From assembly GCF_003651225.1 (NCBI RefSeq), contig NZ_RCDB01000001.1, positions 496,001 through 560,000 on the forward strand: DNA of 64,000 bases, written 5' to 3'. The position numbers and the translations under genes are program-made. Source of the stretch: Microbacterium telephonicum (GTDB lineage Bacteria; Actinomycetota; Actinomycetes; Actinomycetales; Microbacteriaceae). The notes below the pieces were generated by a model that did not search any database, had not been told where the DNA came from, and saw only the letters and a program-made list of their open reading frames with translations. Below are positions 304 through 12,984 of this stretch, one piece after another. Within the stretch, counting starts at the first letter, position 1; the number at the start of each line of letters is the position of its first letter.

Positions 304-1575
304 CTATCCGTTCGACGGCGGGGTTCCGCCGTCACCCAGGGCGCCGCCCATACCGCCGGTGGCTGCTTGCTGGGTGACACTGCCCGCGTAGTCGTTGGTC
401 GGGTCGCGGTAGATGGTGTGCACGTGCCCCCAGCCGGATGTTGAGACGCCGTCGACGTCGGCCCCCGCGGAGCCCTGCTGGGCCTGGAAGGCGATGTAGA
501 CGTTCGGGCCGGAGATGGAGAAGTTGATGCCGTCGCCCGTGCTCATGTCGTACGTCGTCTCACCGGACCACGCGATCACGGTGGTGTCGAGCGTCGCTTC
601 GATCTCGGCGAGGGCGGCGGCGGTGGTCTCGCCGTCGGCCATGCCGACCCAGTTGGCCATCAGCTCGAGGAGAAGCTGCTTCTGCTCGTCGGTGAGGTCC
701 GCGCCCGTAAGCCCTGAGCCGGTGGAGAAGTCGCAGGTGTCGCCAGGGGCGCACATGCTGACGTCGCCGGACGTAAGGGTTGCCTGCTGCTCGGCAGTGA
801 GGCTGTCGAAGAACGCGAACGCGTCGGTGTAGATGCCGTCGAAGGGCTGCACCTCGTTGCCGCTCTCGTCGGTGTAAACGGCCGGCTGCACGCCCAGGTG
901 GGTGGGAGCGAAGGTGATCGCATCGGTGGATCCGTCCAGAGACGCGTTGATACCGAGGTGGTGGCCGCCGACCTGCACTTCCCAGGCGGTGGTGTCGGAG
1001 GGGTCGCCGAAGAACGCGATGTAGTACTGGCCGAGAGAGGTCTCGGTGCTGTTGCTGTTCTCGAGGAGGTACTGGTCGCCGTTCATGATGCCGACAACCG
1101 TGGCATACGCCTCGTCGCTGAGGAGCGCTTCGAGGACGGCCAGCGCGGCGGTCTTCTGCTCGTCCGTCAGATCTGCGAGATTGAGGCCGGCGCGCTCGAC
1201 GAAGGTGACGGGGAAGTTCGACCATGACGTGGTCTTCGTCTCGTCGTCGTACGCGTAGAGCACGGCTTCGCGCTGCTCATCGGACAGCGTCGCCAGGAAG
1301 GCCTCGGCAGCAGCGGTGGTGTCCGCGATGGTCTCGGCCGAGGTCGTCGCCGACGTGCTGGCCGCCGCGGTTGAGGTCGTCGTCGTTTCCTCCGACGTCG
1401 ATGACGTGCTGGTTGTGGTGGGAGTGACGGTCGTCGCGCCAGTAGCGCAGCCGGTGAGAGCGATCGACATGAGTACGATCCCGGCACCGATCGTCAGCGC
1501 CGGCTTCGCACGGCGAGGCGCCGCGGCGTCGGAGGATGTGCGGCGGAAGCGAGAGAAGGGGTTCGTCGTGTGCAT
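304..1575 (-). CDS. DUF3500 domain lipoprotein
   Basis: Predicted exported lipoprotein of 423 aa. I chose the ATG at 1575 because a GAAGG ribosome-binding site lies 8 nt upstream; an in-frame start at 1602 has none. The N-terminus has Arg residues, a hydrophobic run and a lipobox (ALTGC, Cys about residue 43), so it should be lipid-anchored outside the membrane. A Ser/Thr/Glu-rich linker (about residues 46-90) precedes the DUF3500 domain, which has two repeated stretches, LNLADLTDEQK and LTGADLTDEQK, and ends in a Gly-rich tail. Family members are secreted and have no established reaction. The nearest neighbour upstream on the same strand is the beta-helix operon, 302 bp away, with promoter-like motifs in between. 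It is probably a separate unit under the same control. Confidence 0.8.
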   Translation of the reverse strand: MHTTNPFSRFRRTSSDAAAPRRAKPALTIGAGIVLMSIALTGCATGATTVTPTTTSTSSTSEETTTTSTAAASTSATTSAETIADTTAAAEAFLATLSDEQREAVLYAYDDETKTTSWSNFPVTFVERAGLNLADLTDEQKTAALAVLEALLSDEAYATVVGIMNGDQYLLENSNSTETSLGQYYIAFFGDPSDTTAWEVQVGGHHLGINASLDGSTDAITFAPTHLGVQPAVYTDESGNEVQPFDGIYTDAFAFFDSLTAEQQATLTSGDVSMCAPGDTCDFSTGSGLTGADLTDEQKQLLLELMANWVGMADGETTAAALAEIEATLDTTVIAWSGETTYDMSTGDGINFSISGPNVYIAFQAQQGSAGADVDGVSTSGWGHVHTIYRDPTNDYAGSVTQQAATGGMGGALGDGGTPPSNG

Positions 1576-1603
1576 GCCCACAACCTTCGCCGCCCTCACC
1601 AAA

Positions 1604-1877: not shown

Positions 1878-3620
1878 TCAGGGTCGCCGGCCGCCGCCAT
1901 TGCCGCCACCGCCTGGGCCGCCCATCCCGGAAGTCACGTTCGTGCCTTCGGTGACGGTGGTGGCCGTGACGCCGTTCACGGTTACGGTGTAGCTGCCGCC
2001 GTCCGTGATGCCGGGACCGCTGTAGAAGACGGCGGCGAAGGACTCCTCAGCCTCGAACGAGGCAATGGGCGCCCCCGAGGCATCCGTCACCTCGACGGTG
2101 TCGCCCGCCGAGCCGCTGACGGTCGCGGCGACCCATTGCTGCGCGCCGGTCGGTGCGACCAGGACGCTGCCGGCGATGAAGACCTCGCCGCCGTCCATGG
2201 CGATGTCGCCGTTGGCGTCGACTGCGCCCTCGCCGCCGGCCGAGCTCGGTCCGGCCACGGTGGTGGTGCCGCCGGTGAACGAGATGGAACCGTTGGAGTC
2301 AAGGCCGTCGCCACCGGCGACCACTCGCAGTGTCCCGCCCGAGACGGTGAGGGTCTCGCCGGTGGCCGCCTCGCCGCCACCGCCCATACCGCCCTGACTG
2401 GTCGTCGTGGTGCCGCTCGCGGCGTTCACGCCATCGTCGCTCGCGGTGACGTCCACGGTGCCACCCGAGACGGCGATGGCCGCGGCTTCGAGTCCCTCGA
2501 CGGACTCGGTGACGGTGACGTCGCCGTCACGGATCTCGAGCGTCTGCTCGGCGTGGATGCCGTCGTCGCCGGAGGTCACCGTCACGGTCCCACCGCCGAT
2601 TCCGATCGAGCCGTCGGAGTGCACGCCGTCGTCGGCCGCGTCGATCGTGACGTCTCCGCTCTCGATTACCGCGACCACGCCCGCGGACACGCCCTTGGGA
2701 GAGGCATCGGCGGCGGAGGCGTCCGACCCCGCTACCAGGTCGACGGTGCCGCCCGTAATGACGACATCGGTCGTCGCGGCGAAGCCGTCGTCGCCGCTCG
2801 TCGCGGTCACGTCGCCGCCCGAGACGACGATGAAGCCCTGCGTCGCGTCCTCATCCTGATCACTCTTGAGAGCGTCGCCGCCGGCGTCGAGTGCGAGCGT
2901 TCCGCCGGCGACGGTGAGCGAGTCCTTGCCGCGCAGCGCGTCATCCACGGCGTCGACGGTGATCTCGCCTGACAGGATGACGAGGTCGTCGGTGCTGGCG
3001 ATGCCGTCGTTGCCGTTGCCCGATACCTCGAGCGTGCCCGAGCCGGTGATGGTGAGGTCGGCGTCGCTGTAGATGGCTGCGTTCGCTTCCGCGTCGTCGG
3101 CGTAGGACGACGTGTCCGAGACGGTGTTGGTTGTCCCGTCGGCGAGGGCGATCACGACGTCGTCGGCAGTCGTCACGGTGATGGCGGGGGAGTCGGATGC
3201 GGAGATCTCGGCCTCGTCCAGGATCAGCACGACCTGTGCGTCATCGGGCGCCGCGACAACGATTTGGCCGTCGAGCGATCCGGAGAGGCGGAACACGCCG
3301 GCCTGGGTGATCGTGACGGTGGTTCCGTCCACGGTCACGGCGTCGGAGTCGGACGAGGCGGACGACCCGCTGAGGGTGATTTCGACGGCGTCGGATTCGG
3401 ACCACTCGTCATCGCCCACCACGGTGACGTCGGCGTTTGCGGCGAGCACGGCGTCGGCGGTCAGATCCGAGTCCACGACGGCCGTCGTTTCGACGGTGGT
3501 GGTGTCCTCGCTCGTGGTCGAGGTGGACGACGACGCGACGGTCTGCGTGGCGCAACCGGCGAGCACCAGCGCGGCGACGGAGAGGGGAATGGCGGTCAGT
3601 GTCAGGCGGCGTCGGAGCAT
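1878..3620 (-). CDS. Beta-helical carbohydrate-binding-domain lipoprotein (Cthe_2159-like)
   Basis: 580 aa from ATG 3620. Longer readings to 3851 would run inside the preceding VTC gene and give a basic, non-protein-like leader. The N-terminus has Arg residues, a hydrophobic segment and the lipobox LVLAGC (Cys about residue 22), followed by a Ser/Thr-rich linker. The body is a series of about nine short repeats ending in motifs such as GNDGI, GDALK, DDGFA, DDGVH, DDGIH, DDGVN and GDGLD. This is the pattern of Cthe_2159-type right-handed beta-helices, whose founding member binds calcium and acidic polysaccharide. The protein ends in a Gly-rich tail. It is the last gene of the VTC/DUF4956 operon and overlaps VTC by 19 bp. 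I infer a surface-anchored binder of an anionic glycan or polymer; there is no catalytic evidence. Confidence 0.85.
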   Translation of the reverse strand: MLRRRLTLTAIPLSVAALVLAGCATQTVASSSTSTTSEDTTTVETTAVVDSDLTADAVLAANADVTVVGDDEWSESDAVEITLSGSSASSDSDAVTVDGTTVTITQAGVFRLSGSLDGQIVVAAPDDAQVVLILDEAEISASDSPAITVTTADDVVIALADGTTNTVSDTSSYADDAEANAAIYSDADLTITGSGTLEVSGNGNDGIASTDDLVILSGEITVDAVDDALRGKDSLTVAGGTLALDAGGDALKSDQDEDATQGFIVVSGGDVTATSGDDGFAATTDVVITGGTVDLVAGSDASAADASPKGVSAGVVAVIESGDVTIDAADDGVHSDGSIGIGGGTVTVTSGDDGIHAEQTLEIRDGDVTVTESVEGLEAAAIAVSGGTVDVTASDDGVNAASGTTTTSQGGMGGGGEAATGETLTVSGGTLRVVAGGDGLDSNGSISFTGGTTTVAGPSSAGGEGAVDANGDIAMDGGEVFIAGSVLVAPTGAQQWVAATVSGSAGDTVEVTDASGAPIASFEAEESFAAVFYSGPGITDGGSYTVTVNGVTATTVTEGTNVTSGMGGPGGGGNGGGRRP

Positions 3621-4483
3621 GCTGCGTCCTCGATTCGGGTCGGGATGGGAAGAGTTCGTGCCGCGGCCATCGGGCTGGTCGGTGCAGTGACCGTGGTCCG
3701 GCGGGCGTGGACGGGGCGATGTGCGTCTTGGAAGTCGGAGAAGGGCCCGCGCAGCAGGCGCGCCCAGCGGTTGCGGGGCAGTTCGGGGTGCAGTGCGGCG
3801 AGGCCGGTCGCGTACTTGCTGACCGTGGCGGGGCGGTGCCCGGAGCGCCACAGTAGCCGGTCAACGGCGGACGCGCTCGACCCGGATTTGGTCTCGACGA
3901 TCGCCAGGCGCGGGAGCGTGAAGCCGTGGCCGTCGGCCTCGATCCACTCGAGCTCGGTGTCGATGGTCGCACGTCCGGCACCGTCGGGGGCCAGGAGCGT
4001 CGCGCGGCGGTACCGGGTCATGAGCGTCGCGTCGAGCTCGTCTGCCCGCTCGGATGCCACTCCGATCGTGGCTAGTGCATCGGCGACGTCGTCGCGGGCG
4101 TCGGGTGTGAGTTCGCCGCGTCGCCGCGGATCGTACTCGTCGCGCTCCTTGACGGTCGTGCCCCGGGCCCCGCGCGTCTTGATCTCAAGGTACGAAGAGC
4201 CGGTGTCGAGGTAGCTGCGGGTGCGGAGCTTGAATCGGCGTCGCCGCTGCTGCGCGGCCATCCGGAAGCTCAGCAGGTCGGGGGTGTCGAAGTACACCGA
4301 TTCGTAAGCGAAGTCGCGTGCACCGTCGATCTCGAGCACGCGGGTGCCTTCGTCGAGTCCGGCGAGCACGGCCGCGAGATCCGCACGGGGGACAACGTAC
4401 TTGCGGTCCACGCGCGTAAGGAGGGATGCCTCCGCCACGATCTCCTCGAGGGACACCGCGTCGAAACGGTCGAGCGCGATCAT
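3602..4483 (-). CDS. VTC-domain protein (polyphosphate-polymerase-like)
   Basis: 293 aa. It shows the hallmarks of the VTC/triphosphate-tunnel fold: an early RVDRKYVV strand (about 24-31), a Tyr/Phe-Asp pair in SVYFDTP, a run of basic residues QQRRRRFKLRTR, then YLEIKTRG, TVKERDEY, MTRYRRATLL, DTELEW and AIVETKSG. In yeast Vtc4 such alternating acidic and basic strands line the tunnel that makes polyphosphate from ATP. Bacterial homologues are usually next to DUF4956 proteins, as here (ATGA overlap with 4480-5169). The last 50 residues are low-complexity and basic, unlike the domain core. It may polymerise or bind phosphate chains at the inner membrane; enzymatic activity is inferred. Confidence 0.88.
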   Translation of the reverse strand: MIALDRFDAVSLEEIVAEASLLTRVDRKYVVPRADLAAVLAGLDEGTRVLEIDGARDFAYESVYFDTPDLLSFRMAAQQRRRRFKLRTRSYLDTGSSYLEIKTRGARGTTVKERDEYDPRRRGELTPDARDDVADALATIGVASERADELDATLMTRYRRATLLAPDGAGRATIDTELEWIEADGHGFTLPRLAIVETKSGSSASAVDRLLWRSGHRPATVSKYATGLAALHPELPRNRWARLLRGPFSDFQDAHRPVHARRTTVTAPTSPMAAARTLPIPTRIEDAACSDAA

Positions 4484-5169
4484 CGCCGTGCCTCCGCGAG
4501 GTTCGAGTCTGAGACCACGGCCGCGCCGGACGCGGCGGTGGCAGGTTGGACGGCACGTGCGCGCGTGGCGGCCGCGTCCGTCGTCGTGGTCACGGTGCGC
4601 GACATCCGGCGCGTCCGGGCCAGGTCGATTCGGTAGCGGACGTCTACGAGGGTGGTGTCGTTGACCAGATCGAGTTCTTGCACGGTGACGGAGGTGACGG
4701 TGCCGCCGAGACGCTGCCCGAGTTCGGTGCGAAGCACCTGCTCATCGCTGACCGCACGGTCCAGTCGCACGATCTGGTGTCGGCTGCGGGCCAGCAGCGC
4801 GGGGTGGTCCGCGGCCCACAGCACGGCGAGCATGAGCGCGATGAGTCCGACCACGGGCCAGGGATCGGTCTGCGGTAGGCCGGACAGGAGTCCGATCGCG
4901 AGCGCTGCGAAGTAGTACGCGACTTCGCGCTGCGAGATCTCGGATGAGCGCAGTCGGATGATCGATAGCACCCCGAAAAGTCCCAGTCCGAGTCCCATCG
5001 CCACCTCCGCGGTGCCGAGCACGGCGGCGACGGCCATGACGCCCACGTTCACGCCCATGAACGCGACAACGAGATCGCGGCGGCGGTGCCGGCGGTAGTA
5101 GAGCCCGAGGCTGAGGATGATTGCGGCGGCCAGGTCGACAGCGAACAGGATCAGTGCGCTGGTGGTCAT
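4480..5169 (-). CDS. DUF4956 domain membrane protein
   Basis: 229 aa from ATG 5169, chosen because an AGGAGG site lies at the right distance and the start overlaps the upstream stop by 4 bp. Four hydrophobic segments fill residues 1-120: LILFAVDLAAAIILSLGLYY, a segment around VGVMAVAAVLG, the LGLFGVLSIIRLRSSEIS stretch, and AIGLLSGLP followed by VVGLIALMLAVLW. The phrase IIRLRSSEISQREVAYYF is the most conserved part of the family. The cytoplasmic C-terminal half resembles an ACT-like fold and ends in a Thr/Ala-rich tail. DUF4956 proteins almost always accompany VTC-domain proteins, and are presumed membrane partners of the polymer-forming enzyme. The precise function is unknown. Confidence 0.85.
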   Translation of the reverse strand: MTTSALILFAVDLAAAIILSLGLYYRRHRRRDLVVAFMGVNVGVMAVAAVLGTAEVAMGLGLGLFGVLSIIRLRSSEISQREVAYYFAALAIGLLSGLPQTDPWPVVGLIALMLAVLWAADHPALLARSRHQIVRLDRAVSDEQVLRTELGQRLGGTVTSVTVQELDLVNDTTLVDVRYRIDLARTRRMSRTVTTTTDAAATRARAVQPATAASGAAVVSDSNLAEARR

Positions 5170-6326
5170 GGGTTCCTCCTGATGGTGAAGCGTTCGGATT
5201 CCATCCCAGTTGCGGCACCTTGGTGGTTGCTTGGACGGGTATCTGGGGCGGGTCTGAATTGACGGCCGCCTGCATGCTCGCGGAACACGAAGCTGCGTTG
5301 TACGCCGTAGCTGGTGACGAACAGCACCGCTTCCGTCGCGATCTTTGCGACGATCAGGGGGATGCCGAATCCGGTCAACGCCTCCAGCCAGACGACGTTG
5401 GACGCCAGCAGCGCGACCGCCAATAACGCGTACCGCAGCGCCTGACCTGGCATCCGACCCCGCCCGGCTGGTGAAGTCATCGAGCCGCGGAAGACCATGT
5501 GCCGGTTGACGGCGAAATTGACCGACGCGCTCAACACGCGGGCAGCGACGATCGACGGGACGAGGAGGCCGGTGAGCGCGTTGAGGATGAGCAGAGCCAC
5601 CGTGTCGACCGCGAACGCTAGCAGCGACGAGCCGGCGAACAGCACGAGCGGCAGTGCGACGCGCGCGGAATCGACGAGGGGGCGGAAGTGACTGGACGCG
5701 TTGCCTTCGAGATACACCGTCTCGATCGGGATCTCCCGGGTCGTCACGCCGTCGCGGCGGCAGCGCAGCAGCACGTTCTGCTCGAACTCTAACCGTTCGC
5801 CCGGCTGACCACGCACCCACCCCAGAAGATCGGACGGGATGCCGCGCAACCCGGTCTGCGAGTCAGTCAGGCTCCACCCGGCCGCAAGCCGGAACACGGC
5901 GCGCGCGAGCGCGTTCCCCGCTCGACTGCGCACCGGGACGCGGCCAGTGAACGAGCGACAACCCAGCACCAGCGTCGGAGTGCCGACGGCGGCGTCCTCG
6001 CGCAGCGCGTCGGCGACGCGCAGGATGTCGTGCACGGTGTGCTGACCATCGGCGTCCGCCGTCACGACATCATTCCCGGGATGCGTCGCCATCACGTAGT
6101 CGAGGCCGGTCTTCAACGCGGCCCCCTTGCCCCGGTTTGCGTCGTGGCGCAGCACCCTCGCTCCGAGTGCCTCGACTCGGGTGAACGTCTCTGCGAAACC
6201 GGGTCCGCTGCCGTCATCGACCACGACTACCTCGAGATCTGAATCCGCGTCGAGAAGTCCCGCGACGACCGGCTCGAGTCGCGCGCCGGGCTCGTAGGCG
6301 GGGATCAGCACAATCATGGTCATCAC
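5166..6326 (-). CDS. GT2 glycosyltransferase fused to a GtrA-like membrane domain
   Basis: 386 aa. Residues 1-215 form a GT-A glycosyltransferase of the dolichol-phosphate-mannose-synthase type: IVLIPAYEPG, VVVVDDGSG, NRGKGAALKTGL and the metal-binding TADADGQH. Residues about 222-355 form a GtrA-like domain with four membrane helices, ending near SYGVQRSFVFRE. Such fusions make polyprenyl-phosphate sugars and help to flip them, feeding surface glycosylation. The gene overlaps both neighbours by 4 bp (GTGA start at 6326, stop over the DUF4956 ATG), so it belongs to the same transcript. It may supply lipid-linked sugar for decorating the Ser/Thr-rich proteins nearby or for a polymer made by this operon; that is inference. 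Confidence 0.88.
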   Translation of the reverse strand: MMTMIVLIPAYEPGARLEPVVAGLLDADSDLEVVVVDDGSGPGFAETFTRVEALGARVLRHDANRGKGAALKTGLDYVMATHPGNDVVTADADGQHTVHDILRVADALREDAAVGTPTLVLGCRSFTGRVPVRSRAGNALARAVFRLAAGWSLTDSQTGLRGIPSDLLGWVRGQPGERLEFEQNVLLRCRRDGVTTREIPIETVYLEGNASSHFRPLVDSARVALPLVLFAGSSLLAFAVDTVALLILNALTGLLVPSIVAARVLSASVNFAVNRHMVFRGSMTSPAGRGRMPGQALRYALLAVALLASNVVWLEALTGFGIPLIVAKIATEAVLFVTSYGVQRSFVFREHAGGRQFRPAPDTRPSNHQGAATGMESERFTIRRNP

Positions 6327-7291
6327 CCCGCGACGTAGAGGATGTCGCTGGTGCCGCGTTCGCCACCGTTGGAGGGCTGGTTCACGACCTCGCCGTTGAA
6401 GTACATGGTCGAGGAGCCGCCGCCGTCGAGGTTGTACGCCGTGGTCGCCCCGAGGCCGGTCATGATGTCCGCGAGCTCAGTCAGGGTGACCCCGGCGCTG
6501 TACCCTTCTTGGCGGCCATCGACGACAACGAACACGAGGTGGTTTTCGTCAATCACGCCGACCGCGGTCCGCGGCTGGTCCCCCTGGATCGAGTGGTTCC
6601 CGAAGTTGGTGTCGACCTCCTGCGTCTCGATGCCGTCCACGACGGCACCGTCCTCGACGATGGCCGGTCCGAAGCTCAGAGTGTTCCACGCACCGGCAGC
6701 GAGTAGCTCGTCGGCGCTCGTCGCGGTCTCGTCGTACACCTCGACCGTGCCGTCCGTGTAGAACACGAGCCCCGCGCGCGCCGGTTCGTCGCGGTACACG
6801 ACGCCGTTGCGGATCACGATGCCGGTGTCGCGGAAGCCGTAGTAGTCGCCGTTGACGGCGAAGATCGCCCCGTTGTCCGCAGCGATCTGACTGGTGAGTT
6901 CGGTGATGTTCTCACCGAACTGGTCCTTCGCGAAGGCGCTCCGCAGGGCCGTGGCATCCGACAGCACCACGTCGGCGACGTAGTACGTAACGGTATCGTC
7001 GCCCGACCCCTCGGTAACCGTGCTGACCGTGACCGACGTCTCGCCGTCGGTATAGGAGGTGTCGGTGACGGTGGCCTCCGCTGTCTCCTCCGTCGTCTCC
7101 GTCGCCTCGGTGGTGGCGCTCGACGTGTCATCCGACGTGGAGTTTTGCGCCTCGTACTCCGACACATCGGCAATCTCGACGTGCTCGACGAGGAAGCGGT
7201 CGGCAGCCCACGCGGCCGCGCCACCGCCCGTCAGGGCGACGACGAGACCGGACGCAATCAAGGTGTTCCGGGTTCGTCTCTTCATGTCCAT
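6323..7291 (-). CDS. Exported phosphodiester glycosidase (NAGPA/DUF2233) family protein
   Basis: 322 aa, first gene of the minus-strand operon. A hydrophobic segment at about residues 11-30 (ASGLVVALTGGGAAAWA) is a signal peptide or anchor. A Ser/Thr/Glu-rich linker (about 50-80) leads to a NAGPA domain (about 95-322) with the family signatures FAVNGDYYG, SFGPAIVEDG, QPRTAVGV and NLDGGGSSTM. The mammalian relative removes GlcNAc from GlcNAc-1-phospho-mannose; bacterial members are thought to cut sugar-phosphodiester bonds on extracytoplasmic polymers. Beside a VTC protein and a glycosyltransferase this suggests trimming or turnover of a phosphodiester-linked surface polymer. Start 7291 lacks a clear ribosome-binding site; ATG 7285 is possible. 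Confidence 0.88.
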   Translation of the reverse strand: MDMKRRTRNTLIASGLVVALTGGGAAAWAADRFLVEHVEIADVSEYEAQNSTSDDTSSATTEATETTEETAEATVTDTSYTDGETSVTVSTVTEGSGDDTVTYYVADVVLSDATALRSAFAKDQFGENITELTSQIAADNGAIFAVNGDYYGFRDTGIVIRNGVVYRDEPARAGLVFYTDGTVEVYDETATSADELLAAGAWNTLSFGPAIVEDGAVVDGIETQEVDTNFGNHSIQGDQPRTAVGVIDENHLVFVVVDGRQEGYSAGVTLTELADIMTGLGATTAYNLDGGGSSTMYFNGEVVNQPSNGGERGTSDILYVAG

Positions 7292-7610
7292 GCGTCATGA
7301 ATACGGGGCGGACCTAAATCGGCCATTGCCCAGTCCTATGAACCGGCATTGAGCCCGAGGCGACGGGCAGTTACATGAAGCGCAAAGGCGAATGGTCAGG
7401 TTAGGCACGTCTACAAGGAGCGCACGCGCACCTGAAGCCTCCTGACCTCGAACGCTGGCTTTAGCTGCTTCATAGGAACCGTGAAGGTTTCGGCCGCACG
7501 GTAGCGGGAGCAGGATCCGATCGCCACCGTCCCACACCGTCTTCGACGGACGGGCCAAGTGACCCGAGCGGACATTGGACCATCCGATTCGAAACCGGGA
7601 AGCTAGAACT
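7292..7610. promoter_or_regulatory. Divergent intergenic region with repeated GCTTCAT-type elements
   Basis: This 319-bp region separates the minus-strand operon from the plus-strand two-component system and holds no gene. Related elements occur on both strands. GCTTCATAGGAACCG (7467-7481, +) is followed by TGAAGG. On the minus strand GCGCTTCATGTAACTG lies at 7383-7368 and CCGGTTCATAGGACTGG at 7345-7329. They resemble the elements at 1604-1642 and 9829-9866. Arrangement as repeated half sites in front of an OmpR-family regulator suggests autoregulation. Promoter hexamers could not be fixed with confidence. Confidence 0.5.
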
Positions 7611-8345
7611 ATGACATTCCCAGCCCCCAGGCCAGCGCCGCTTACGAGGCCCGACGGGGCGCCGATTCGCGCGCTCGTCGTAGACGACGAGGCGAACCTC
7701 AGCGAACTGCTGCGCATGGCGCTGCGCAACGAGGGCTGGGATGCGCGAACTGCCGCGAACGGGCAGGAGGCGCTCAACGTCATCCGCGAGTTCTCCCCAG
7801 ATTTGCTCGTGCTCGATGTGATGATGCCCGGGCTCGACGGGTTGGAGCTGCTACGACGCGTCCGCGCGACCGGCAACGACATCCCCGTTCTCTTCCTGAC
7901 CGCGAAGGACGCTGTCGAGGACCGCATCGCGGGAATCTCCGCCGGCGGCGACGACTACGTGACCAAGCCGTTCAACCTCGAGGAGGTCATCCTCAGACTT
8001 CGCGGTATGGCGCGCCGGCACGTTGCTGCAGTCGCCGACGAGGATCCCCGACTTCACGTCGCCGACCTCACGCTCGACGAGGACACGTACGAGGTGGAAC
8101 GAGGCGGGACTCCGATCAAGCTGACCGCGAAGGAGTTCGACCTCTTGAGGTACCTCATGCAGAACCCCCGCCGAGTGCTCAGCAAGGCGCAGATCCTGGA
8201 TCAGGTCTGGAGCTACGATTTCGGCGGAAACTCAAGCGTCGTCGAGATCTATATCTCCTACCTGCGGAAGAAGATCGACACGCTCGGCGAGCCTCTGATC
8301 CATACCGTGCGAGGCGTCGGCTACACCATCAAGCCCAGCTCATGA
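7611..8345 (+). CDS. OmpR-family response regulator
   Basis: 244 aa from ATG 7611. The receiver domain (about 18-130) has the acidic pair VVDDE, the phospho-acceptor Asp in LLVLDVMMPG, Thr/Ala in LFLTAKD and the conserved Lys in DYVTKPFN. A winged-helix DNA-binding domain follows (about 148-243), with LTAKEFDLLRYLM, VLSKAQILDQVW and the ending TVRGVGYTI. It is the partner of the kinase at 8342, overlapping by 4 bp. Its likely targets are the flanking surface and redox operons, whose promoters carry related sequence elements. The signal is unknown. Confidence 0.95.
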   Translation: MTFPAPRPAPLTRPDGAPIRALVVDDEANLSELLRMALRNEGWDARTAANGQEALNVIREFSPDLLVLDVMMPGLDGLELLRRVRATGNDIPVLFLTAKDAVEDRIAGISAGGDDYVTKPFNLEEVILRLRGMARRHVAAVADEDPRLHVADLTLDEDTYEVERGGTPIKLTAKEFDLLRYLMQNPRRVLSKAQILDQVWSYDFGGNSSVVEIYISYLRKKIDTLGEPLIHTVRGVGYTIKPSS

Positions 8346-9799
8346 GCAGACGGCGGTGGACGCTACGGCGCAAGCTGGTGGTGGGCACCGGTACGCTCGT
8401 CGCGATCGGTTTGCTCGTCGCGGGCATCCTGACCACGGTGGCGCTGCGGTCGTTCGTTTACGAGCGACTGGACACGCAGGTGCAGGAGGAACTCCAGAGG
8501 GCTCTGGGGCCCGAGGGCCCCGGGGGCGAGGATGCGCCAGATCAGCCCGGGTCTTTCAGCGATGACGGCCCTGCCGAGCGGGTCGGTTCGCTACAGGTAT
8601 TTCTGGACGAAGACGGTTCCGTTCGCGAGTCGGCATACGTTGCTGACAACGGCGACGAGGTGACTCTCACCGACGAGCAGAAGGAGATTCTGCAGTCGAC
8701 GACTTTTACCGACGGTGTGCCCGCGACCGTCGACCTCGGGTCGGAGATCGGCGTGTTCCGCGTCGTGTCGGGGACTCAGGCGGGCACCACCGTCATCGCC
8801 GGGCGCTCGGTCGAGGACGTCACTGCGACTACCACCGCCTTGGCCGTCATCCTCCTCGGGGTGTCTGGTGTGACGCTGCTCGTCATTCTCGTCGGCCTGG
8901 CCGTGGTGGTAACCCGGAGTCTTCGCCCGCTGAGCCGGGTGGCGGCCGTCGCCGACCGCGTGGCCACCCGCGAATTGGCGGACGGCGAGGTCGACATTCC
9001 GGACCGAGTAGATGTGAGGGACACGGATTCCGACACCGAAGTGGGACGTGTCGGCCGATCACTGAACACCCTCCTCGGTCACGTCGAAGCGGCCCTCACG
9101 TCGCGACAGCACAGCGAAGAGCAACTTCGTCGCTTCATCGCCGACGCCAGCCACGAACTACGCACCCCCCTCGCATCCATCCGCGGCTACGCGCAGCTCT
9201 CGCAAGCCGAGGCGGCACCGATGACGCCCACCCAGGAGCGCTCGTTCGACCGGATCTCAGCGGAATCCGCCCGCATGGCGGACCTCGTCGATGACCTACT
9301 CCTCCTCGCAAGGCTTGATGCCGGCCAGTCGCTGCGGGAGGACAGCGTCGATCTCCCACTGCTCGTCATCGACGCTGTCAGCGACGCGCACGCCGCCGAT
9401 CCCTCGCGGGAATGGCGGCTGGGCGAGGTCGCTGAAGAGGCCATCGGCTTAGGGGACGAGAACCGCCTCCGGCAGGTGCTGTCCAATCTCCTCCGCAATG
9501 CTCGCACTCACACGCCGCCGGGAACCGTGGTTACCACCTCGCTCTCGGTCGATGACACCCAGGCGATCATCCGTGTGAACGACAACGGGACGGGCATCGA
9601 TCCCGGCGTGCGCGACCGGCTGTTCGAGCGCTTCGCCCGAGGGGATCACTCTCGAAACCGCGACTCCGGGAGCACCGGGCTGGGCCTGTCCATTGCACAC
9701 GCCATCGTCGCTGCTCACGGCGGCACCATCAAGGTCGACAGCGAACCGGGCAACACGACCTTCACGGTGCGGGTGCCGCTTCAACAGGCACGGTCGTAA
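8342..9799 (+). CDS. Membrane sensor histidine kinase
   Basis: 485 aa. A first membrane helix (about 12-35), an extracytoplasmic sensor region of about 125 residues rich in Asp/Glu and Gly, and a second helix (about 175-200) precede a HAMP domain (SLRPLSRVAAVADRV). The catalytic core has the H-box DASHELRTPL with the phosphorylated His, the N-box LSNLLRNARTH, the G1 box DNGTGI, an F-box FERFARGD and the G2 box STGLGLSI. It should phosphorylate the adjacent response regulator. The acidic sensor domain is compatible with sensing cations or phosphate-rich polymer, but no known ligand domain is recognised. Confidence 0.95.
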   Translation: MSRRRWTLRRKLVVGTGTLVAIGLLVAGILTTVALRSFVYERLDTQVQEELQRALGPEGPGGEDAPDQPGSFSDDGPAERVGSLQVFLDEDGSVRESAYVADNGDEVTLTDEQKEILQSTTFTDGVPATVDLGSEIGVFRVVSGTQAGTTVIAGRSVEDVTATTTALAVILLGVSGVTLLVILVGLAVVVTRSLRPLSRVAAVADRVATRELADGEVDIPDRVDVRDTDSDTEVGRVGRSLNTLLGHVEAALTSRQHSEEQLRRFIADASHELRTPLASIRGYAQLSQAEAAPMTPTQERSFDRISAESARMADLVDDLLLLARLDAGQSLREDSVDLPLLVIDAVSDAHAADPSREWRLGEVAEEAIGLGDENRLRQVLSNLLRNARTHTPPGTVVTTSLSVDDTQAIIRVNDNGTGIDPGVRDRLFERFARGDHSRNRDSGSTGLGLSIAHAIVAAHGGTIKVDSEPGNTTFTVRVPLQQARS

Positions 9800-9916: not shown

Positions 9917-10264
9917 ATGAACGGCATCCGCAAGGCATGGCTCCGCACACGACTGGCGACAGCAATGGTGGTCGCGATGAGTGTCGGTGCGACCGGTGTG
10001 GTGGTGTCCAGCATCGCCTCAGGCATGCAGGACACGACCGCATCGACCACGAGCACGGAATCCACAACCACCGACACGAGCACCACCCAGTCGACCACCG
10101 AGGCTGAGACGACTGAGTCCACCTCCTCTGACGACTCCACAGCGGAGGACTCGTCCGCGACGACGACCGAATCGGACACTGACGCGTCGAGCGAATCGGC
10201 GGAATCGGGCGCCGTCTCCGAGTCCACCTCCTCCGAGTCCGACGCGACATCGAGCGGGTCATGA
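9917..10264 (+). CDS. Small Ser/Thr-rich exported or membrane-anchored protein
   Basis: 115 aa, no recognised family. The start has a GGAGA-type ribosome-binding site (AAGGAGATCGGG). Residues 1-12 are basic, 13-36 hydrophobic (a signal peptide or anchor), and the rest is almost only Thr, Ser, Glu, Asp and Ala. The tail is disordered, acidic and a plausible O-glycosylation target. Composition matches the linkers of the DUF3500, beta-helix and NAGPA proteins in this region. It is the first gene of the ApbE/ferric-reductase block and overlaps ApbE by 4 bp, so it may be an extracytoplasmic partner of that redox system. It has no FMN-binding domain and no clear flavinylation motif. Confidence 0.75.
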   Translation: MNGIRKAWLRTRLATAMVVAMSVGATGVVVSSIASGMQDTTASTTSTESTTTDTSTTQSTTEAETTESTSSDDSTAEDSSATTTESDTDASSESAESGAVSESTSSESDATSSGS

Positions 10265-11199
10265 TGCGTGCGACAAGTGAATGGCAGCTGTGGTCCACGA
10301 CCGCACGCCTCGTCGTCGATCGCGAGGACGCGCTGGAGGATGCGCTGGAGATCGCGCACCGCGAACTTGCTCGCATCGATTACGTCGCTAGCCGTTTCCG
10401 CACCGACTCGGAGGTGAACCGGATCGCGGCGCGGCAGCCGTCGGGAGTCACTGTGAGCGGGCTGCTCGCGGTGCTCATCCGTCGGGGTCTGGAAGCGGCG
10501 CAGCTGACGGGCGGTTTGGTCGATCCGACGCTCGGGCGCAGCATGAACGGGATCGGCTACGACCGCGACATCCGCCTCATACTCGACGACGACCGCCCGG
10601 TACGCGCGGTGGTTTCCTCTCGGCCGGGCTGGCAGAACGTCCAACTGCGGGGAAGGCATCTCACCGTGCCCGGTCACCTGACACTCGACCTCGGCGCCAC
10701 CGCGAAGGCCGTCGCCGCCGACCTGGTGGCTAACGAGATCGCCCGCCGTTTGGGCTGCGGGGTGCTGCTGTCGCTCGGCGGCGACATCGCCACCGCCGGC
10801 GCCGAACCGGCCGACGGGTGGCATGTCACCGTGCAGGACGTCCCGGGTGAGCCCGCAGGTCGGGTGCATGTCCGGGCCGGAGCGGCGGTCGCCACCTCGA
10901 GCACCCTCCGCCGCCGGTGGTTGCGCGGGGGAGAGCAGATGCACCACATCCTCGACCCACGAACGGGCCGCCCCGCCGCACCGGTGTGGCGCACCGTATC
11001 GGTAGCGGCTTCGAGTTGCTTCCTCGCCAACTCGTTCGCCACCGCCGCCATCGTCCACGGCGCCACCGCACCCGAATGGCTGGCCCGGCGTGCGTCGGCA
11101 CGGCTCGTAGACCAGCACGGACGCGTCATGACCGTCGGAGGCTGGCCGGCCGAGGCAGCGGCAGACCACGACATGCCGATGGGGGTGCGCCATGGATGA
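10261..11199 (+). CDS. FAD:protein FMN transferase (ApbE family)
   Basis: 312 aa. Family features in order are VASRFRTDSEVNRI (about 40-53), LVDPTLGRSM, DLGATAKAVAADL, LLSLGGDIATAG and HHILDPRTGRPA. ApbE enzymes use Mg2+ and FAD to attach FMN to a Ser or Thr of a partner redox protein, usually outside the membrane. No lipobox or signal peptide is visible, so this form may act in the cytoplasm or be exported differently. No FMN-binding (DsxGAT-type) acceptor is found in the window, so its substrate is open. It overlaps both neighbours (4 bp upstream, 8 bp downstream), placing it in one transcript with the ferric-reductase-like protein. Confidence 0.92.
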   Translation: MMRATSEWQLWSTTARLVVDREDALEDALEIAHRELARIDYVASRFRTDSEVNRIAARQPSGVTVSGLLAVLIRRGLEAAQLTGGLVDPTLGRSMNGIGYDRDIRLILDDDRPVRAVVSSRPGWQNVQLRGRHLTVPGHLTLDLGATAKAVAADLVANEIARRLGCGVLLSLGGDIATAGAEPADGWHVTVQDVPGEPAGRVHVRAGAAVATSSTLRRRWLRGGEQMHHILDPRTGRPAAPVWRTVSVAASSCFLANSFATAAIVHGATAPEWLARRASARLVDQHGRVMTVGGWPAEAAADHDMPMGVRHG

Positions 11200-11791
11200 A
11201 GCCCTCTGGGCGCTCGGTCGCGGTACCGGCGTCATCGGTCTCGCGCTGTTCAGCCTTGCTCTCGTGCTTGGCATCACCGTGCGGTCGGGCCGATCCGCGG
11301 CCGGCCTGCCGAAATTCGGCGTTGCACGTCTGCACCGCGACGTCGCACTCCTTGCCATGGTCTTCATCGGCATCCATATCCTCAGCCTCTTCTTTGACAG
11401 CTACGCCCAGCTGCAGCTGGTCGACCTGGCCGTGCCGTTCCTCGCGGCATATCAGCCGTTCTGGCTGGGGCTCGGCACGCTCGCGGCTGACCTCACCTTG
11501 GCGGTGGTCGTCACGGCCCTGCTGCGCCACCGCATCGGTGCGCGCGCATTCCGCGCCGTGCACTGGGCGACTTACCTGCTCTGGCCACTGTCCGTGGCGC
11601 ACGGGATCGGCGCGGGCACGGACGCCGCCGAGCCGTGGTTTCTGATTGTCGTGGGCGTCTGCTGCGCCGCTGTCCTCGGCGCGGTGGCCTGGCGGGTGAC
11701 CGCCAGATTCCGTCGTCCCCAGCCCGTGACCCCTGCCCGCATCAAGACGGCGGCGACCCGCCGCCTCGCATCTTCGGAGGTTTCGTCATGA
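11192..11791 (+). CDS. Ferric-reductase-like heme membrane protein
   Basis: 199 aa with about five to six hydrophobic helices. Two His pairs are spaced as in the ferric reductase/YedZ/cytochrome b561-like family: HRDVALLAMVFIGIH (His about 49 and 63) and HWATYLLWPLSVAH (His about 127 and 140). These would bind two hemes that carry electrons across the membrane. There is no flavin or NAD domain attached, so electrons must come from separate proteins, most simply the NuoF-like protein and ferredoxin encoded next. The C-terminal 25 residues are basic and cytoplasmic. Confidence 0.85.
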   Translation: MDEALWALGRGTGVIGLALFSLALVLGITVRSGRSAAGLPKFGVARLHRDVALLAMVFIGIHILSLFFDSYAQLQLVDLAVPFLAAYQPFWLGLGTLAADLTLAVVVTALLRHRIGARAFRAVHWATYLLWPLSVAHGIGAGTDAAEPWFLIVVGVCCAAVLGAVAWRVTARFRRPQPVTPARIKTAATRRLASSEVSS

Positions 11792-12984
11792 TCAACACCC
11801 AGCCATCGGTGCCGCGCCTACTCGCCGCGCCCTCTCCGTCGCTGCACGACCACTCCCGCACGTTCGGGCCGCGTCCGTCCCCTTCGGCCGCGGAGCTGAT
11901 CGGCGAATTGGAGCGGGCCGCACTCGACGGACGCGGCGGAGCGGGTTTTCCTGCTCACCGCAAACTCCACGCCGTCGCCGCACAGCCGCGGAAGCGCGGA
12001 GCCCCGATCGTCATCGGCAACGGCAGCGAAGGGGAGCCTCTGAGCGCGAAGGACGCCGTCCTCCTCGCCTCCGCGCCCCACCTCGTGATCGACGGGCTCC
12101 TGATCTGCGCTGACGCCCTCGGCGCAGCTGAAGGCCGGCTTGTGGTGGGGCCCTCGACCGCAGGCGTCGTTCGCGCTGCACTCGCGGAACGCTCCGACGC
12201 TCACGCCATCCGCCTCCACGCCGAAAGCGGCGGATTCGTCGGCGGCGAGGCATCGGCCGTGGTCGCGGGCTTAGCCGGTCGACGTCCGGTTCCCGCCGAC
12301 CGGCCGGTGCGTCTCGCGGTCAGCGGACTGCATCGTCGGCCGACCCTTGTGCAGAACGTCGAGACACTCGCGCACATCGCCCTCATCGCCCGTTACGGCG
12401 CCGCATGGCATCGCTCGGTCGGCACCACGGACGCACCTGGAACGCGGCTCGTCAGCGTGAGCTGGGGAGACACCTCACCGCGTGTCTTTGAGGTATCTGG
12501 CGGTTCCCCCCTCCGCTCGCTACTCGACGCGGCCGGCGCACCCGACACATTTCCGGCTTTGGTCGGCGGTTTCCACGGCGCTTGGGTACCGGCGTCCGCC
12601 CTCGATTCGCCTCTCTCGGCCTCAGGTCTCGCACCGCATGGAGCCAGCCCCGGCGCCGGCATCCTGCATCCGCTCACCGAAGGCGAATGCGGCATCCAGG
12701 TGACTGCACGCACGCTCGCCACCCTCGCCGCGGCATCCGCGGGGCAGTGCGGGCCCTGCGCGAATGGCCTGCCCCGTATCGCGGAACTGATGCGCGAGCT
12801 GCTGGCCGGGACGGACACGACCGCAGAGCTCAGACGGATCGCCGGCCTCATCGACGGGCGGGGCGCCTGTCATCACCCCGACGGAACGGTACGGATGCTG
12901 CGGAGCGCCCTTGTCGTCTTCGCCGACGACATTGCCGCTCACGCACACGGACGTTGCCTGACCCGATCGGAGGTGAGAGCATGA
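11788..12984 (+). CDS. NuoF-like NADH-binding flavoprotein with altered Fe-S motif
   Basis: 398 aa from ATG 11788 (CGGAGG site 7 nt upstream). The FMN-binding loop DGRGGAGFPAHRK and the NADH-loop equivalent NGSEGEPLSAKD match complex I subunit F. VQNVETLAHIALI follows the family pattern. In the C-terminal iron-sulfur region the usual SCGxCxPC appears as SAGQCGPC, so the first Cys is replaced by Ala; the remote Cys is present in GACHHPDG. With three ligands the cluster may be absent, three-iron, or completed by another residue. It probably oxidises NADH and passes electrons to the ferredoxin (ATGA overlap) and on to the heme membrane protein. Confidence 0.85.
   Translation: MINTQPSVPRLLAAPSPSLHDHSRTFGPRPSPSAAELIGELERAALDGRGGAGFPAHRKLHAVAAQPRKRGAPIVIGNGSEGEPLSAKDAVLLASAPHLVIDGLLICADALGAAEGRLVVGPSTAGVVRAALAERSDAHAIRLHAESGGFVGGEASAVVAGLAGRRPVPADRPVRLAVSGLHRRPTLVQNVETLAHIALIARYGAAWHRSVGTTDAPGTRLVSVSWGDTSPRVFEVSGGSPLRSLLDAAGAPDTFPALVGGFHGAWVPASALDSPLSASGLAPHGASPGAGILHPLTEGECGIQVTARTLATLAAASAGQCGPCANGLPRIAELMRELLAGTDTTAELRRIAGLIDGRGACHHPDGTVRMLRSALVVFADDIAAHAHGRCLTRSEVRA

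Follow-up and report, generated by a model that had tools for sequence, protein, structure and literature searches.

A two-module VTC-DUF4956 operon with a predicted lipid-sugar gene pair in Microbacterium telephonicum: a candidate surface phosphate-polymer system

The yeast VTC complex (Vtc1/Vtc3/Vtc4) is a polyphosphate polymerase that is coupled to membrane transit, and its channel is lined by basic residues (PMC9911596, excerpts). In Gram-positive bacteria, genes for CotH, a polyphosphate polymerase and a DUF4956 protein have been described as accessory genes beside pelDEADAFG (PMC7112168, excerpts). Here, we analyzed a related operon of Microbacterium telephonicum, which lies in a window of 64,000 nucleotides (the whole stretch of DNA studied) from the 3.1 Mb host genome. 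It runs on the minus strand from 7291 down to 1878 and consists of five open reading frames in the order NAGPA, GT2-GtrA fusion, DUF4956, VTC and Cthe_2159 beta-helix (Table 1).

In comparison to the yeast complex, the bacterial set has the same catalytic tunnel fold and a constant membrane partner, and the VTC residues R87/R89 correspond to Vtc4 R264/R266, two of the three residues altered in an inactivated complex (PMC9911596, excerpts). In contrast to yeast, the bacterial VTC protein has neither an SPX domain nor a fused transmembrane region, the membrane part belongs to the separate DUF4956 family, and the operon adds sugar genes and a beta-helix protein. With the Pel accessory set it shares a VTC-type gene adjoining DUF4956 and, by prediction, the tie to a surface polymer, but it contains neither CotH nor pel genes; the beta-helix protein takes the place of CotH, and NAGPA and GT2-GtrA are added. 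The last protein has the PF14262 beta-helix of Cthe_2159 from Clostridium thermocellum (PDB 4peu, 4phb), which we take to be a binder of acidic glycans, but is here a predicted lipoprotein within a VTC operon. GT2-GtrA combines Glycos_transf_2 (55.5 bits) and GtrA_DPMS_TM (43.4 bits) in one protein with a DADGQH motif, like the polyprenyl-phosphate sugar synthases. Against NCBIfam it matches synthases of polyprenyl- or dolichyl-phosphate sugars as well as other GT2 enzymes (the nearest models include PpgS, AglJ and dolichyl-phosphate hexose transferase), in each case far below the cut-off; for the equivalog PpgS, a polyprenyl-phospho-GalNAc synthase, it reaches 70.2 bits at a cut-off of 370. 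It also differs from these enzymes in having a NAGPA partner (74 of the best 80 loci, see below). The NAGPA protein (PF09992, 140.5 bits) shares the blocks NGDYY, PRT, DGR and NLDGGGS with PDB 3ohg and belongs with the DUF2233/NAGPA glycosidases (3ohg, human 6pkg), but is a predicted membrane-anchored, single-domain form paired with GT2-GtrA.

The earlier note on this DNA regarded the function of the whole set as undescribed. Searches of the open-licence PMC literature, bounded by the terms chosen and with most subscription papers outside their reach, gave no paper connecting NAGPA or GtrA with VTC or DUF4956 and none describing an exchange of beta-helix and CotH; the former tie is also absent from the excerpts of PMC12419801, PMC4000134, PMC11188070 and PMC10657179. 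However, VTC-DUF4956 near exopolysaccharide genes is already in print (PMC7112168, excerpts). The VTC-DUF4956 surface set is known, and the operon is a variant of it with the sugar pair NAGPA and GT2-GtrA.

Table 1. Features of the operon and the divergent regulatory genes (window positions).
Feature	Position	Strand	Length	Basis
NAGPA (PF09992) phosphodiester-glycosidase-like protein	6323..7291	-	322 aa	Pfam PF09992
GT2 + GtrA fusion, predicted polyprenyl-phosphate sugar synthase/flippase	5166..6326	-	386 aa	Pfam domains, DADGQH motif
DUF4956 membrane protein, predicted VTC export partner	4480..5169	-	229 aa	Pfam, structure model
VTC-domain protein, predicted polyphosphate polymerase	3602..4483	-	293 aa	Pfam, tunnel fold
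Cthe_2159 (PF14262) beta-helix lipoprotein	1878..3620	-	580 aa	Pfam, lipobox-like LVLAGC
Divergent OmpR-type response regulator	7575-8345	+		Pfam
Histidine kinase	8342-9799	+		Pfam

A conserved operon of two modules

The five-gene set is a real, conserved operon. The tight packing in one direction seen in the earlier note, with overlaps of 4, 4, 4 and 19 bp, was borne out: GT2-GtrA overlaps DUF4956 at 5166-5169, DUF4956 overlaps VTC at 4480-4483, and VTC overlaps the beta-helix gene at 3602-3620, while the 4-bp overlap of NAGPA and GT2-GtrA (6323-6326) depends on a GTG start at 6326; the alternative ATG at 6317 would leave a 5-bp gap. For the beta-helix gene, the ATG at 3620 was preferred as start to the GTG with which the longer frame (to 3851) opens, because the lipobox-like LVLAGC comes after this ATG. 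All five proteins exceed the curated Pfam cut-offs, and the NCBIfam models offered no name for VTC, DUF4956, NAGPA or the beta-helix protein. A scan for consensus promoters and terminators between 1500 and 7700 found none (shuffle means 0.4 and 1.7).

The genus sample comprised 59 genomes, including the host genome, and 14 control genomes were added. VTC is present in 16 of the 59, and DUF4956 in the same 16. Cthe_2159 occurs in 15 of these and in one further genome (G037), PF09992 in 13 genus genomes, 12 of them with VTC; the thirteenth (G050) has two matches, both in frames of more than 1200 amino acids. As for conservation across relatives, which the earlier note had proposed to check, the complete order on one strand recurs at 10 of the 15 further VTC loci in the genus, counting L031, where the contig end cuts the NAGPA gene. 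Four loci (L018, L024, L026, L029) carry DUF4956, VTC and beta-helix without the sugar pair, and at L022 a two-component system accompanies DUF4956 and VTC. In the genome of L026 (G008), NAGPA and GT2-GtrA lie together at a separate locus (L061).

Within the Microbacteriaceae, VTC was found in 32 of 249 genomes (20 of 85 genera). Outside the genus, where all 29 VTC loci were read, every locus has DUF4956 no more than 0.7 kb from VTC, and the beta-helix gene is present at 22. The sugar pair accompanies only two of the 29 (L044, divergent; L056, same order), one has NAGPA alone near a contig end (L058), and 26 have neither gene beside VTC; in at least one genome outside the genus, the pair lies away from VTC (VTC locus L046, pair at L095). 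Among 396 Actinomycetota genomes, 42 have VTC and 44 have DUF4956, including all 42, the match in G527 being below the cut-off. In the controls, both families are confined to Bacteroides ihuae, Corynebacterium glutamicum and Methanosarcina acetivorans. DUF4956 accompanies VTC at 84 of 86 loci; the misses are a contig end (L132) and an extra VTC copy (L064). The genome with this copy (G507) carries three VTC genes (L063, L064, L065): one lies beside a divergent DUF4956 gene and CotH, another is accompanied by DUF4956 and the beta-helix gene, and for L064 no adjacent DUF4956 gene was found.

The link between the sugar pair and VTC was analyzed in an alignment scan of GT2-GtrA, using the best 80 of 541 loci (Actinomycetota, Bacillota and one spirochaete), which include close relatives. 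At 74 of them, a NAGPA gene is found in the same orientation no more than 3 kb from GT2-GtrA, at 59 of these within 60 nt, with a median gap of 9 nt between the matched stretches; NAGPA comes first in 54 pairs and second in 20. GT2-GtrA stands without NAGPA at L091, L113, L114, L152, L157 and L158, four of which have less than 500 bases on one flank, and the NAGPA matches of L131 are all atypical (190 and 114 bits). The assignment to both families was verified with Pfam at L105, L128 and L141, three distant loci. VTC is nearby at 22 of the 80: it follows the pair in the same orientation at 12, precedes it in the same orientation at five and is divergent at five. All five families meet at 19 of the 80. 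In a quick GT2-GtrA tree (90 rows), the state of having VTC nearby changes at least 10 times, four of these changes being forced by starred branches; some rows without nearby VTC lie on short contigs, so that the count may be inflated.

VTC was also searched genome-wide for 40 of the 58 unlinked loci, namely those with long flanks on both sides. It is present elsewhere in the genome in 36 of the 40 (20 of 22 Actinomycetota, 15 of 17 Bacillota and the one spirochaete; groups were assigned by record titles, and some rows are near kin, such as L130/L135 and L126/L159). Without the NAGPA-less L114 and L158, the count is 35 of 38, and adding the 22 linked loci brings it to 57 of 60. The base rates of VTC are 11-13%, with 42 of 396 genomes in Actinomycetota and 25 of 199 in the phylum of G720 (G720 included), a sample to which the Paenibacillus rows may not belong by phylum. 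The GT2 matches at L048, L052 and L053 (56-61 bits) were not counted as part of the pair, as they are generic. A small membrane protein with weak HlyIII similarity in Pfam (L133:5000-5425) recurs at 10 loci of the GT2-GtrA set, none of them with nearby VTC.

The earlier note had coupled VTC-DUF4956 to the sugar genes. This holds insofar as the pair tracks genomes with VTC even when it is unlinked, but not in the sense of one unit, as seen from the VTC genomes of the genus without PF09992 (4 of 16), the separate locus in G008 and the 26 of 29 loci outside the genus. The operon is composed of two modules, VTC-DUF4956 (module A) and the optional pair NAGPA and GT2-GtrA (module B): module B mostly implies VTC, and VTC does not imply module B.

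At VTC loci, the beta-helix lipoprotein and CotH are exchanged. Of the 86 loci read, 63 carry the beta-helix gene and 11 carry CotH within 6 kb of VTC; none has both and 12 have neither, some of the latter at contig ends; after removal of identical VTC rows (81 loci), the numbers are 58, 11, 0 and 12. CotH was confirmed by Pfam at two loci (L062, L087) and assigned by a custom-built profile at the others, with a weak match (58 bits) at L080. At the window locus, no CotH was found within this distance. The label changes at least four times in a quick VTC tree, where several long branches meet, and in Microbacterium lacus (L087), NAGPA, GT2-GtrA, DUF4956 and VTC are combined with CotH instead of the beta-helix gene within a beta-helix clade. 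The constant VTC-DUF4956 pairing, the near restriction of module B to VTC genomes and this exchange are the strongest results of the analysis.

Features of the encoded proteins

The VTC protein matches its Pfam family over the profile positions 2-235 of 235 (91.7 bits, cut-off 23) and is 94% identical to a Microbacterium yannicii protein; no transmembrane-like segment was found in its 293 residues. A single-sequence search of the PDB gave nothing useful, whereas a profile search matched Vtc4, and the tunnel fold is nearest to that of Vtc4. In the profile alignment, seven charged residues, including R87/R89, align with an identical residue of Vtc4, and the same seven are invariant in 24 rows. 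The tunnel residues that can be aligned are thus retained, a point on which the earlier note had made its reading depend; the 20 identical VTC/Vtc4 positions were chosen from invariant columns and are no independent test. R80, R83 and K85 have no basic counterpart in Vtc4. The alignment ends before Vtc4 E426, whose equivalent is probably E197. PPK1 is present in 58 of the 59 genus genomes, the host and all 16 with VTC included (sole miss: G039, 44% complete). The VTC unit is therefore an extra, optional system in the genus, and a replacement of PPK1 by VTC was rejected.

For DUF4956 (214 bits), the structure model (pLDDT 79, pTM 0.54) has five helices followed by a C-terminal beta-alpha-beta-beta domain. 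Among 14 members (one partial, identity down to 13%), only G66, R72, R74, F87 and G93 are invariant, and R72 and R74 are unchanged even at 13-20% identity. The positive-inside rule suggests that the arginine-rich loops after helices 1 and 3 face the cytosol. As basic residues line the yeast channel (PMC9911596, excerpts), R72 and R74 would by analogy be natural candidates for a polyphosphate entry site. The similarity to MgtC is weak (two of 14 members, best E 6e-6), and the match of one DUF4956 protein (L063:10487-11164) lies below the Pfam cut-off; together with the membrane-plus-beta-alpha-beta-beta layout of the model, DUF4956 may be a remote MgtC relative.

NAGPA has a single N-terminal hydrophobic segment (residues 10-30), a pI of 4.05 and a predicted extracytoplasmic location. 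Its enzyme family cleaves sugar-1-phosphodiesters, and a polyprenyl-phosphate sugar contains such a bond. The persistence of the pair across phyla would follow if the product of GT2-GtrA belongs to the bond class that NAGPA breaks. No GT-C transferase for the pair stood out in the neighbour clusters inspected, although no dedicated search was made. The beta-helix lipoprotein (Cthe_2159, 292.6 bits; PDB 4peu, E 6.5e-32) likewise has a pI of 4.05.

A tentative model and its alternatives

Our preferred reading, which we consider possible and hold with some reserve, is a surface phosphate-polymer system in which VTC would make polyphosphate, DUF4956 would export it, and GT2-GtrA and NAGPA would add or remove sugars. 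The cytosolic VTC protein would polymerise phosphate from ATP like yeast Vtc4, and DUF4956 would pass the chain outwards, taking the role that the transmembrane channel has in yeast. GT2-GtrA may make a polyprenyl-phosphate sugar and turn it outward, and NAGPA may act either on this lipid-linked product or on polyphosphate capped with sugar. In the place that CotH takes at other loci, the acidic beta-helix lipoprotein would hold the polymer at the membrane, perhaps via calcium, with module A as the base and module B as optional decoration. We infer the product (polyphosphate or a phosphate-bearing glycan), its export, trimming and binding. A more specific version, which we regard as unlikely on the whole, assumes self-contained glycosylation at the outer face without a GT-C transferase: GT2-GtrA would load and flip a polyprenyl-phosphate sugar, and this glycosyl-phosphodiester would serve the NAGPA-fold enzyme as donor for capping or decorating the polyphosphate threaded out by the two-gene VTC-DUF4956 machine, resulting in glycosylated surface polyphosphate on the beta-helix lipoprotein.

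Several points weigh against the preferred reading. The human NAGPA substrate is an alpha-GlcNAc-1-phosphodiester, and DPMS-like GT2 enzymes usually yield beta-linked lipids. In the Pfam scan, the VTC protein showed no SPX domain but only the VTC domain, and the literature consulted gave no activity or product for any bacterial VTC. Searches of the DUF4956 profile and model against the PDB found no credible match, including to a known channel. PF09992 is missing from four of the 16 VTC genomes of the genus (G013, G025, G033, G043), and the pair occurs without VTC in three genomes (L102, L121, L131). Full-length NAGPA of the operon type (>300 bits) was found in three of 396 Actinomycetota genomes, all with VTC, compared with 42 with VTC, and weaker matches (~97 bits or less) in 94 others; as at most five candidates were scored per genome, some may be missed. 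The close relatives among the best 80 loci, the short contigs in the GT2-GtrA tree and the 18 unlinked loci left out of the genome-wide search count in the same direction.

Alternatively, VTC-DUF4956 might serve an exopolysaccharide pathway, where exported (poly)phosphate is an outside phosphoryl donor for CotH or for phosphorylating a glycan bound by the beta-helix protein, and no polyphosphate is stored or displayed. The exchange of beta-helix and CotH fits this idea, as do the pel clusters of streptococci, clostridia and bifidobacteria that adjoin genes for CotH, a polyphosphate polymerase and DUF4956 (PMC7112168, excerpts), and the VTC genes, CotH and chitin-synthase-like glycosyltransferase of C. 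perfringens NELoc-2 (PMC2879425, excerpts). However, the Pfam scan found no kinase or polysaccharide synthase in the operon, and evidence for CotH using polyphosphate was not met in the literature. We regard this pathway as rather unlikely. The tunnel fold itself is shared with inorganic and thiamine triphosphatases and class IV cyclases; a VTC protein that makes no polymer and instead, as a phosphatase or nucleotide-handling enzyme, regulates a membrane process via DUF4956 appears quite unlikely to us.

Module B might also have an independent housekeeping role, in teichoic acids or lipid-linked sugars, and meet VTC only in shared cell-envelope islands, which would agree with its frequent location far from VTC and with the PF09992 domains in many other proteins. 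Against this stand the presence of VTC elsewhere in 35 of 38 genomes with an unlinked pair, compared with the base rate given above, and the several arrangements in which pair and VTC adjoin, and we consider it improbable. That five unrelated genes are packed by chance is close to negligible: no support for it was found, and it is contradicted by the order kept in 10 of 15 genus relatives and by other linkage arrangements in other families.

Neighbouring genes and implications

Divergent to the operon lie the genes of an OmpR-type response regulator and a histidine kinase (7575-9799). A regulator and a kinase from the same broad clusters are both present at 26 of 145 loci, and 21 of these belong to the 86 VTC loci, making the two-component system a candidate regulator. 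An OmpR-type regulator and kinase are also found near VTC at L022, L048, L052 and L053, and this location at VTC loci without the sugar pair suggests that the two-component system regulates the VTC module. In the divergent intergenic region, a single direct repeat of 13 nt, imperfect and with copies at 7372 and 7412, is too short to interpret. A neighbouring ABC ATPase cluster (25 loci) was not counted as a linked gene, since the family is generic.

Directly downstream of the operon and on the same strand, positions 304-1602 (-) encode a DUF3500 protein (PF12006, 250 bits), relatives of which were not found at the 44 loci L017-L060. On the plus strand, 9917-12984 holds a row of genes for a Ser/Thr-rich small protein, an ApbE flavin transferase (PF02424), a ferric-reductase-like membrane protein (PF01794) and a NuoF-like flavin/Fe-S protein (PF01512, PF10589), likely a flavin-based extracytoplasmic electron-transfer unit.

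If the preferred reading of a surface phosphate-polymer system is true, bacteria with PPK1 may carry a second, outward-aimed polyphosphate machine, resembling a split yeast VTC complex, together with a sugar module that depends on it. DUF4956, the bacterial VTC proteins and the NAGPA/GT2-GtrA pair would then share a joint, testable function, and the surface phosphate polymers of actinobacteria and clostridia would become accessible to genetics.

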